A DNA stretch of 31,174 nucleotides from a virus. Positions 5,737 to 8,146 of this stretch are shown piece after piece. How positions within the stretch are numbered: position 1 is the stretch's first letter; each line of letters begins with the position of its first letter. Where the stretch lies: positions 1-31,174 of the IMG/VR virus record IMGVR_UViG_3300049596_000349; one strand, written 5' to 3'. The notes beneath the pieces were generated by a model that did no database searches, was not told the origin of the DNA, and worked only from the letters and a program-made list of their open reading frames with translations. Made by a program: the position numbers and the translations under genes.

Positions 5737-5742
5737 AAAATA

Positions 5743-5765
5743 ACCCACCAATCGGTGGGTTTTTT
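5743..5765 (+). terminator. Rho-independent terminator
   Basis: Perfect 7-bp stem ACCCACC/GGTGGGT (5743-5749, 5754-5760) with AATC loop, followed by a run of T. The A-run before the stem would also allow some termination in the opposite direction. It closes the 3098-5736 transcription unit just before the chaperonin promoter. Confidence 0.9.
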
Positions 5766-5795
5766 GTTTTATATGATAAAATTTTACTAAATTTG
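5764..5795 (+). promoter_or_regulatory. Promoter of the chaperonin operon
   Basis: TTG (5764-5766), 21-nt spacer, TAAATTTG (5788-5795): a complete Bacteroidota-type promoter. The start codon of groEL lies 17 nt after the -7 box. The TTG is in the T tract of the preceding terminator, so groEL-groES is insulated and independently transcribed. Confidence 0.7.
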
Positions 5796-5811
5796 ACCAA
5801 AATATAATCAA

Positions 5812-7371
5812 ATGATAGTAAAACAAGTCTATTTTGGTGATGAAGGCCAAAAAAAATTAAAAAACGGCATTAAAATTATCGCTGGGGCGGTAAAGAGCAC
5901 CTTGGGTGCCAGAGGTCGGACGGTGTTAATAGAGTCAGAGAACCACGTAGGTGGTATCACCGTAACAAAGGACGGTGTGACGGTTGCAAAGTCAATCAAC
6001 CTGTACGACCCGACTGAGAACTTGGCTGTAATGATGATGCGTCAGGCGGCTGACAAGACATCTACAGTAGCTGGTGACGGCACGACTACATCGATCGTGT
6101 TGGCAGAGGCCATAATCAATGCAGCAGACAATCACGTTGACTCAAACACTAATGTGATAGAGGTGATACGTGAGATCAACGACATCACGGCATCTGTTGT
6201 GGCTAGGCTCAGTAAGATCAGCAAGAAGGTCACTGGCAAGAAGCTGTGTGACGTGGCATCGATCAGTTCAAACAACGACAAGCAGATCGGCAAGATGATC
6301 TCTGACGCATTCAGCGAGGTTGGCATGGTTACCGTTGAGAATAGCATGAACTCTGAGACACATGTAGAGATTATTAGTGGGATGAAGATAGACCGTGGAT
6401 ACACGTCTAAGTACTTCATCAACGACCACAAGAAGCAGGAGTGTGTGTTAGACAATCCATACGTACTGATCACCGACCACGAGATAAACAACCTATCAAA
6501 CTTAGAGTCTATACTTGCACCAATTGTTAGTCAGGGAAGGTCGTTATTGATCATAGGCACGCTTGGACAGAACGCAGTGAACACATTAAATGTGAACGTG
6601 GCACAGGGCAAGATCAAGGCGTGCAACATCATACCACCATCGTTTGGATACAGGAAGAAGGACCTACTAGAGGACCTAGCCGTAGCACTTGGCGGTACGT
6701 ACCTCTCTGAGGACACTGGAGACGACCTAACACTTATTTCTATGTCTGACCTAGGAAGGGCATCAAAGGTTATCGTAAAGAAGAACATGACGGTATTTAT
6801 GAATACATCAGAGATGAAGGATGCCATCGACATGAGGGTATCTGACCTGAAGCACCAGATATGGGAGACCACAGACGCAAACGACAGAGAGTTCTTAAAG
6901 GAAAGGATTGCAAACATATCTGGAGGTGTTGGCGTTATATATGTTGGTGCACTTAGTGACATCGAGCAGAAGGAGAAGAGGGACAGGATCGATGACGCTG
7001 TGTGTGCGGTTATGGCTGCGATGGAGGACGGGATACTTCCTGGCGGAGGTGTTGCACTACTGAACTGCTTAGACTTAGTGATGGGTGAGAGCATAGCTCA
7101 GAACATAATGTTCGATACGTTGAGCGCACCATTTGATCAGATACTTATAAATGCAGGCAAGGACCCACACGTTATCAAGCTAGAGTTGGCAGGCATGGGC
7201 GAGGGCTATGACGTGAAGAACGAGGTGTACGGTAACATGATGAAGATGGGCATTATAGACCCAACGAAGGTTACGAAGAACGCACTGCTTAACGCTGTAT
7301 CTGTGGCAACAACAATTATGAGTACAAACGCAATTATAACAAACATAAGAGACTATGAAGGTTCTAAATAA
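5812..7371 (+). CDS. groEL: Phage-encoded chaperonin GroEL (Cpn60)
   Basis: 519 aa, aligning by eye over the full length of bacterial GroEL. ATPase signatures are intact: KDGVTVAK with Asp54, GDGTTT at 88-93 (Asp89 = E. coli Asp87), and IDDAVCAV with Asp395 (= E. coli Asp398), followed by GGG at 411-413. The apical domain (about 185-370) keeps the SGMKIDRGY start, hydrophobic client-binding positions around 228-238 and RSLLIIG. The C-terminus ends shortly after DPTKVTKNA and lacks the GGM-repeat tail. The protein should form the ATP-driven folding ring together with the GroES encoded next, probably for capsid or tail proteins. The gene order groEL-groES is reversed relative to bacteria. Base composition is visibly richer in G/C-ending codons than the flanking genes, suggesting separate acquisition. 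Confidence 0.96.
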   Translation: MIVKQVYFGDEGQKKLKNGIKIIAGAVKSTLGARGRTVLIESENHVGGITVTKDGVTVAKSINLYDPTENLAVMMMRQAADKTSTVAGDGTTTSIVLAEAIINAADNHVDSNTNVIEVIREINDITASVVARLSKISKKVTGKKLCDVASISSNNDKQIGKMISDAFSEVGMVTVENSMNSETHVEIISGMKIDRGYTSKYFINDHKKQECVLDNPYVLITDHEINNLSNLESILAPIVSQGRSLLIIGTLGQNAVNTLNVNVAQGKIKACNIIPPSFGYRKKDLLEDLAVALGGTYLSEDTGDDLTLISMSDLGRASKVIVKKNMTVFMNTSEMKDAIDMRVSDLKHQIWETTDANDREFLKERIANISGGVGVIYVGALSDIEQKEKRDRIDDAVCAVMAAMEDGILPGGGVALLNCLDLVMGESIAQNIMFDTLSAPFDQILINAGKDPHVIKLELAGMGEGYDVKNEVYGNMMKMGIIDPTKVTKNALLNAVSVATTIMSTNAIITNIRDYEGSK

Positions 7372-7612
7372 ATATATTATCGTTGATAAGTTAGTAGAAA
7401 AAAAGACCACCTCGAGTGGTCTTATAATGAGCGGAGACGAGTACAAGGACATGCGCTACCAGTACGGTAATGTCATAAACTTTGGACCTCTAGTTTCTGG
7501 TATGGAGATAGGTGACAAGATAATGTTCGACAGGGTGTCTGGTCACGAGGTCATCATAGAGAACGATAGGATGTTCATTCTTCAAGAGAAGGATGTTGTT
7601 TGCGTTCTTTAG
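7355..7612 (+). CDS. groES: Phage-encoded co-chaperonin GroES
   Basis: 85 aa, a little shorter than the usual 95-100. KVLNKYIIVDKL matches the first GroES strand. KTTSSGLIMSG (17-27) is the mobile loop, with Leu-Ile-Met in place of the Ile-Val-Leu that contacts GroEL. GNVINFGP, then EIGDKIMFD and ENDRMFILQEKDVVCVL match the barrel core and last strands. The missing length falls between GNV and the VGD-type strand, i.e. the roof hairpin is shortened. It overlaps the end of groEL by 17 nt in another frame, implying translational coupling. Its 3' end overlaps a convergent gene by 38 nt. It should cap the phage GroEL ring. Confidence 0.92.
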   Translation: MKVLNKYIIVDKLVEKKTTSSGLIMSGDEYKDMRYQYGNVINFGPLVSGMEIGDKIMFDRVSGHEVIIENDRMFILQEKDVVCVL

Positions 7613-8084
7613 ACTCCTTATTAACTCTTTTTATTGCTATGGCTAGAGTCTTCTGTGAGAATGTAGCGTTAGGTCTAAACACGATGTTTCTTCTTGGCGA
7701 TTCAGGTATAGGCTCTAGCCCCATTAGTTTTCGGTAGATACTGGCTACCATCTTCTTTGCCTTAAACGACAGCTCGTACATGTCGTACTCTCCCTTTCTG
7801 CGTTCTCTCCACTTGGATATAAATCCGTCACGCAGCAGTTTATCAAATCTCGCACGATCCCAGCTCATAAATTTAGAGTACTCATGGAACTTAGCCCTGG
7901 TGAACAGGTTCTCTGTATATAAAAACATCAGCATGTCCATGTCTGCCTGCGACTTTATGCCGTAGTTGTGTATGGCCCACTTGCGTATTATACCCCAATT
8001 CTTAAGAAAGTCATATCTAACTTCCTTTCTGTGGTATACTTTTTCTTTTCTTTTACTTATTACTTGTTTAATATTTGGAATCAT
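7575..8084 (-). CDS. Putative winged-helix (MarR-like) DNA-binding protein
   Basis: Starting at the ATG at 8084 the product is 169 aa, very basic. Residues about 30-115 have the pattern of a winged helix: a helix (NWGIIRKWAIHNYGI), a helix starting SQADMDMLMFLYTENLFTR, a recognition-type helix (SWDRARFDKLLRDGFISKWR), then a wing with YDMYELSFKAKKMV. The C-terminal 50 residues are Lys/Arg-rich. An ATG at 8117 lies upstream of the predicted transcription start, so 8084 is chosen. Similar proteins occur in Bacteroidota phages as far as I recall, usually without assigned function. Transcribed against the late genes and divergent from 8122, it is placed like a regulator of this promoter region. 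Its 3' end overlaps groES by 38 nt. Confidence 0.65.
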   Translation of the reverse strand: MIPNIKQVISKRKEKVYHRKEVRYDFLKNWGIIRKWAIHNYGIKSQADMDMLMFLYTENLFTRAKFHEYSKFMSWDRARFDKLLRDGFISKWRERRKGEYDMYELSFKAKKMVASIYRKLMGLEPIPESPRRNIVFRPNATFSQKTLAIAIKRVNKESKERKQHPSLEE

Positions 8085-8097
8085 TTGATTATATTTG
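8064..8097 (+). promoter_or_regulatory. Rightward promoter of divergent pair
   Basis: TTG (8064-8066), 23-nt spacer, TATATTTG (8090-8097) followed by TAT. It points to the gene at 8122. It overlaps the 5' end of the minus-strand regulator gene and lies face to face with the leftward promoter at 8115-8146. Confidence 0.55.
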
Positions 8098-8114
8098 TAT
8101 TTAAATTTATAAAG

Positions 8115-8146
8115 CAAAGTTATGAAAAATAGAAAGACAATGGCAA
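8115..8146 (-). promoter_or_regulatory. Leftward promoter of divergent pair
   Basis: On the minus strand TTG (8146-8144), 21-nt spacer, TAACTTTG (8122-8115). The predicted start near 8108 supports ATG 8084 as the start of the winged-helix gene. It overlaps the first codons of the plus-strand gene at 8122, so the two promoters produce overlapping transcripts and can interfere. Confidence 0.5.

Follow-up and report, generated by a model that had tools for sequence, protein, structure and literature searches.

Chaperonin genes are already known from phages of Bacteroidota. Nishimura et al. 2017 (PMC5332604) describe GroEL in marine Bacteroidetes phages, a second paper reports homologues of both GroEL and GroES in Maribacter phage Panino (PMC11590407), and both proteins are annotated in isolated Flavobacterium elemoviruses (vB_FspP_elemo, e.g., MT497098.1). 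The 2020 paper on Baltic Flavobacterium phages makes no mention of the elemo chaperonin. Both cpn60 and cpn10 are also present in Callevirus (phi40:1 / Calle_3) and in Immutovirus, and phi14:2 has a groEL for which we found no groES within 3 kb. In phage T4, gp31 works with the host's GroEL; its dome has no roof loops, and their absence is believed to favor the folding of gp23, a capsid protein of 56 kDa (PMC6318259). The chaperonin of phage EL is reported to work without GroES and has been proposed to act without encapsulation (PMC7185714), and we found no groES in the 1.5 kb flanks of the chaperonin loci of EL (gp146) and AR9. In a limited literature search, we did not find a description of the combination that we report here, which is a reversed and overlapping gene order, a roofless GroES, Glu at position 234 of GroEL, inter-ring contacts that are no longer conserved, and a conserved promoter.

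We analysed a linear IMG/VR virus record of 31,174 bases (the window, by which we mean this whole stretch of DNA). Its structural module is crAss-like, with TerL, portal, major capsid, and connector genes in that order (PHROG matches) and a muzzle protein (PF25731, above the Pfam cut-off); the gene order TerL-portal-MCP-connector-muzzle, by which membership in the crAss-like phages is judged, is present. The window thus covers part of the genome of a crAss-like phage, one that belongs to Bacteroidota hosts. A record of 62,265 bases (G028, locus L018) is the same phage, nearly complete: its GroEL and TerL are both 100% identical to those of the window, and outside the window it encodes a primase/helicase, a helicase, and exonucleases. 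The window's TerL is 68% identical to that of the circular genome MW202828.1 (Caudoviricetes sp. ctfjg026, 60,850 bp) and 44% identical to that of the Flavobacterium elemoviruses. In two relatives (L246, record G034, 53227-56430; and record G033, locus L045), TerL contains an in-frame intein directly after the Walker B motif LLLVHDE, with Hint and a LAGLIDADG homing endonuclease (PF05203, 2e-10; PF05204, 1.9e-8). Within the window, positions 2747-2854 hold a degenerate tandem repeat (periods of 16, 24, and 32; unit like GGTCGATAGGTCGACA) and no clear genes.

On the forward strand of the window, groEL (Cpn60; 5812-7371, 519 amino acids) is followed by groES (Cpn10; 7355-7612, 85 amino acids), and the coding regions overlap by 17 nt (7355-7371, ATGAAGGTTCTAAATAA). 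Both reading frames are intact, and both proteins score above the curated family cut-offs: GroEL matches PF00118 over its full length (residues 23-511; 176 bits, cut-off 34.3), and GroES matches PF00166 (45.5 bits, cut-off 21.1). An earlier note on this DNA had described the two genes as encoded together, overlapping by 17 nt, and in the opposite of the bacterial order, and all of this holds; groES comes first in 77 of 77 scorable Bacteroidota-type bacterial loci (i.e., those with a detectable groES). The groES-first order is also found in the immuto, DAC19, and Callevirus phages. So phi40:1 / Calle_3 and Immutovirus resemble the window in having both genes but differ from it in having them in the bacterial order, and the GroES of immuto, unlike that of the window, retains the length of the roof loop.

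The note had also called such a pair uncommon in phages, which is not true of this lineage. Among the close IMG/VR loci that we collected by searching with the window's GroEL, in every one of the 58 whose contig includes both genes, groEL precedes groES and the overlap is exactly 17 nt. Three more distant loci (L057-L059) keep groEL first, with a short overlap or a gap instead. We also examined 27 record fragments that were picked by TerL alone, independently of their chaperonin genes: groEL is present in 13 of these fragmentary records, each of which has groES as well, with groEL first. The same order is seen in MW202828.1 and the isolated Flavobacterium elemoviruses, as well as in marine relatives that were found by TerL alone. 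No Cpn60 was found in a 55 kb TerL relative (record G011), which either can do without the pair or has it in sequence that is missing from the record. Both genes are under strong purifying selection (dN/dS of 0.05-0.09 for groEL and 0.08-0.21 for groES). The chaperonin genes are inherited as one block, with their order and overlap conserved.

Like the window, MW202828.1 has an annotated groEL, an overlapping Cpn10 gene, and then a convergent winged-helix gene, and its GroEL is 48% identical to the window's; it differs in the spacing of its promoter, and its use of G/C-ending codons is not raised. The elemoviruses also have groEL and then groES, but with a 1-nt overlap. They share with the window a roofless GroES, the lack of a GGM tail, a related TerL, membership in the same GroEL clade, and a convergent winged-helix gene downstream. 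On the other hand, their GroEL is just 37% identical to that of the window, the genes lie in a different neighbourhood, and the codon bias is slight.

Upstream of groEL, the window has an intrinsic terminator on the forward strand (AACCCACCAATCGGTGGGTT plus a T run, 5742-5761). By inspection, this terminator-like hairpin is kept in most relatives, with a changing stem sequence. Next comes a promoter, at 5764-5795 on the same strand, with TTG at 5764-5766, a spacer of 21 nt, and a -7 box, TAAATTTG, at 5788-5795. This is the TTG-N21-TAAATTTG promoter that the earlier note had pointed out, and its significance comes from the relatives, not from the window, in which the pattern by itself is not significant (2 matches vs. 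0.72 expected). In 35 of 37 relatives, a TANNTTTG box has its start at -27 to -23 relative to the groEL ATG, and 0.2 would be expected from shuffles. More distant relatives (L254 and L256-L260) yielded no such box within 100 nt upstream of groEL, so the insulated promoter belongs to the nearer clade and is not universal. The sigma-A boxes of Flavobacterium occupy positions -12 to -5 relative to the transcription start (PMC9723704; PMC6847099), which would put the start at about 5800 and give a 5' UTR of about 12 nt. Also, groESL of Flavobacterium psychrophilum is listed under an alternative-sigma promoter, SM4 (PMC9723704), which makes it probable that the host's heat-shock control does not extend to the phage copy.

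These results support the view that groEL-groES is a self-contained unit and has a sigma-A-type promoter of its own. The only insulator that we found is the upstream terminator; downstream, the 3' end of groES is overlapped for 38 nt by a convergent gene for a winged-helix (MarR-like) protein (7575-8117 on the reverse strand; its start, TTG as listed, is uncertain). Separately, there is a recombination hot spot about 400-600 nt before groEL in two pairs of loci (L039 vs. L040 and L044 vs. L046). On either side of it, the members of each pair are 97-99% identical; the differences fall within the 3' portion of the upstream gene, the region of the terminator, and the promoter of groEL.

The phage GroEL belongs to group I and not group II, as its best PDB matches are GroEL. 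The ATPase residues (T30, D52, D87, T89-T91, D398, and D495) are intact in all 25 GroEL sequences from the family; these include the catalytic aspartates D52, D87, and D398 (and also D495), in keeping with the note's remark that the ATPase aspartates are intact. It was also right about the GGM tail, which is absent from the window's GroEL and from every family GroEL that we checked. In E. coli GroEL, L234, V263, F204, and L237 are part of the hydrophobic apical groove that binds substrate and GroES, and E434, R452, and E461 are inter-ring contacts. In the groove, position L234 is Glu and position V263 is Asn, Ala, or Ser in 25 of 25 family sequences, while F204 and L237 are retained across this set. 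The three inter-ring positions are deleted or variable, in a part of the alignment that is gapped. Peptides of GroEL that are specific to the window were not found in bacterial genomes.

A roof beta-hairpin is usual in GroES but does not define it. The roof loop of the window's GroES is 9 residues shorter than in Salmonella, and the same deletion is found across the family and in MW202828 and elemovirus, so the missing hairpin that was noted in the window is a property of the whole clade. The mobile-loop motif (SGLxL by consensus; SGLIM in the window) is retained in the family, with its hydrophobic tripeptide, and R34, Y35, and D59 are invariant in 22 family sequences. An AlphaFold model of only moderate confidence (pLDDT of 78, and below 60 in the mobile loop) has a GroES fold: the top matches from Foldseek are GroES/Cpn10 structures (TM of 0.63-0.79), and T4 gp31 (1g31) also turns up in the search. 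T4 gp31 is like this GroES in having no roof loops, but it has a longer mobile loop and a host GroEL as its partner, whereas the phage in the window encodes its own. EL gp146 and AR9 share with the window a phage-encoded Cpn60, but they are very distant from it in the GroEL tree.

Given the open reading frames, the dN/dS ratios, and the AU tests (described below), the phage groEL-groES is intact, under purifying selection, and not recently derived from a host. We think that it probably encodes a functional, dedicated group I chaperonin pair of this crAss-like phage lineage, and we infer that GroEL and GroES function as a pair. Under this proposal, groEL-groES would be transcribed as one short operon from the TAAATTTG promoter, by the host's RNA polymerase with the primary sigma factor and outside of the host's heat-shock control. 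The 17-nt overlap would couple translation of groES to that of groEL. With its altered apical groove, the phage GroEL would partner the phage's own roofless GroES, and the cage that the two make might be roomier than usual or vented, and would serve to fold bulky proteins of the phage. Candidate substrates include the major capsid protein (477 amino acids), TerL (740 amino acids), and the portal (809 amino acids); that bulky virion proteins would be the substrates is our guess by analogy. The 55 kb relative in which we found no Cpn60 and the moderate confidence of the GroES model count against the proposal. The system is old, vertically inherited, and complete, and its groove, lid, and ring interface are consistently changed. 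With it, one can ask directly whether the folding cages of phages come to be orthogonal to those of the host, and which virion proteins need them. The isolated Flavobacterium elemoviruses make a phage chaperonin pair testable in the laboratory.

A more ambitious version of this proposal is possible, though we lean against it. GroEL and GroES might form a phage-specific branch of group I in which the two co-diverged into an orthogonal pair (with Glu234, a roofless lid, no GGM tail, and weakened ring-ring contacts), giving a cage, with a single ring or an open roof, that accommodates oversized virion proteins and is under the control of a phage-specific promoter.

Alternatively, the two proteins might not act together at all. 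GroEL alone might prevent aggregation, as has been proposed for EL gp146, and/or GroES might work with the host's GroEL, as T4 gp31 does; the reports of a GroES-independent chaperonin (PMC7185714) and of gp31's use of the host GroEL (PMC6318259) are precedents, and in phi14:2, as mentioned above, no groES was found near groEL. The altered groove (L234E, V263N) and the loss or variability of E434, R452, and E461 also favor this idea. However, groEL and groES overlap and are inherited together in the family, the mobile loop of GroES retains its motif, and selection against change is strong in both genes. We consider it unlikely that the proteins act separately.

Another idea, to which we give a little less credence still, concerns the regulation of our proposed pair: the unit might regulate itself much as HrcA-CIRCE systems do, with the linked winged-helix protein acting through a palindrome at the -7 box to repress the groEL promoter. 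A strong palindrome covers the -7 box in 7 of 15 non-redundant groEL promoters, as compared to 5 of the 324 TANNTTTG sites elsewhere in this DNA, and the sequences of its arms vary from phage to phage. This variable palindrome looks like an operator. Also, among the 27 TerL-selected records, the winged-helix gene adjoins groES in all 14 that have either gene (these include G014, G015, G018, G019, G021, G023, and G025), even though it is convergent in some records and co-directional behind groES in others. In a fold search, a model of the winged-helix protein resembles MarR repressors, but this is tentative (best E of 0.008).

Against this idea, the palindrome in the window's own groEL promoter is not significant (p = 0.76). 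A search of the promoter for the CIRCE element (TTAGCACTC-N9-GAGTGCTAA) gave 0 matches with up to 3 mismatches, and we reject HrcA-CIRCE regulation of the groE type on that basis. Furthermore, the DNA of the winged-helix gene is the same in L038, L039, and L040, and yet the palindrome of L039 is different. In Callevirus phi38:1, the winged-helix homologue lies among structural and lysis genes, and phi40:1 has no homologue within about 3 kb of groEL. The identical genes beside different palindromes, along with the position of the gene in phi38:1, weaken the case for the winged-helix protein as the reader of the palindrome. The winged-helix gene and its divergent neighbour are both preceded by a symmetric sequence, TTATATTTGTACAAATATA (at about 8258 in L043 and about 3098 in L038, and at the same spot in L044, L045, and L049), which is possibly a bidirectional promoter.

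It is far less probable that this is a degenerate or moonlighting chaperonin without folding activity. The missing GGM tail and roof hairpin and the unconserved inter-ring residues could be read in this way, but the ATP-site residues are invariant, purifying selection is strong, and, in gp31, losing the roof loops does not preclude full function (PMC6318259).

As for the origin of the phage pair, a tree of 73 GroEL sequences places the family and MW202828 in one starred clade that lies outside of the sampled bacteria, and when the longest branches are removed, elemovirus joins this clade (95.8); both trees were built by a quick method, and long branches are still a caution. In AU tests, holding the family with Flavobacteriia was rejected (p-AU = 0.003), as was holding it with all of the sampled Bacteroidota (p-AU = 7e-59). 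The earlier note had named a phylogeny as the test that could refute its view, and the nesting within a host clade that it had in mind was not found. Because the host groupings are rejected, recent host capture is excluded. With its reversed order and its position outside of the sampled bacteria, the locus is not a bacterial groESL operon either. The simplest reading of the trees is one old acquisition followed by vertical inheritance. That a host groESL operon was captured recently and its genes rearranged afterwards is the least probable of the explanations that we considered: the codon use of groEL-groES does differ from that of the flanking genes, and the closest solved relative of GroEL is an ancestral Fibrobacteres-Chlorobi-Bacteroidetes chaperonin, but the tree and the AU tests speak against it, the order, overlap, and codon bias are common to the whole family, and the bacterial loci all have groES first.

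The codon bias that the note had described is real. GC3s is 0.53 for groEL and 0.47 for groES, versus 0.17-0.47 for the other genes in the window. It is also found throughout the family, as GC3s is higher for groEL than for the other long open reading frames around it in all 62 of the loci compared (0.44 vs. 0.26), so it is an old feature and not a sign of recent arrival. We also reject the bias as a mark of high expression: GC3s is low in the window's major capsid gene (0.23), and it is partly raised in neighbouring genes, with family values of 0.43 for groES, 0.41 and 0.37 for the small neighbours f87 and f72, and 0.36 for the winged-helix gene.
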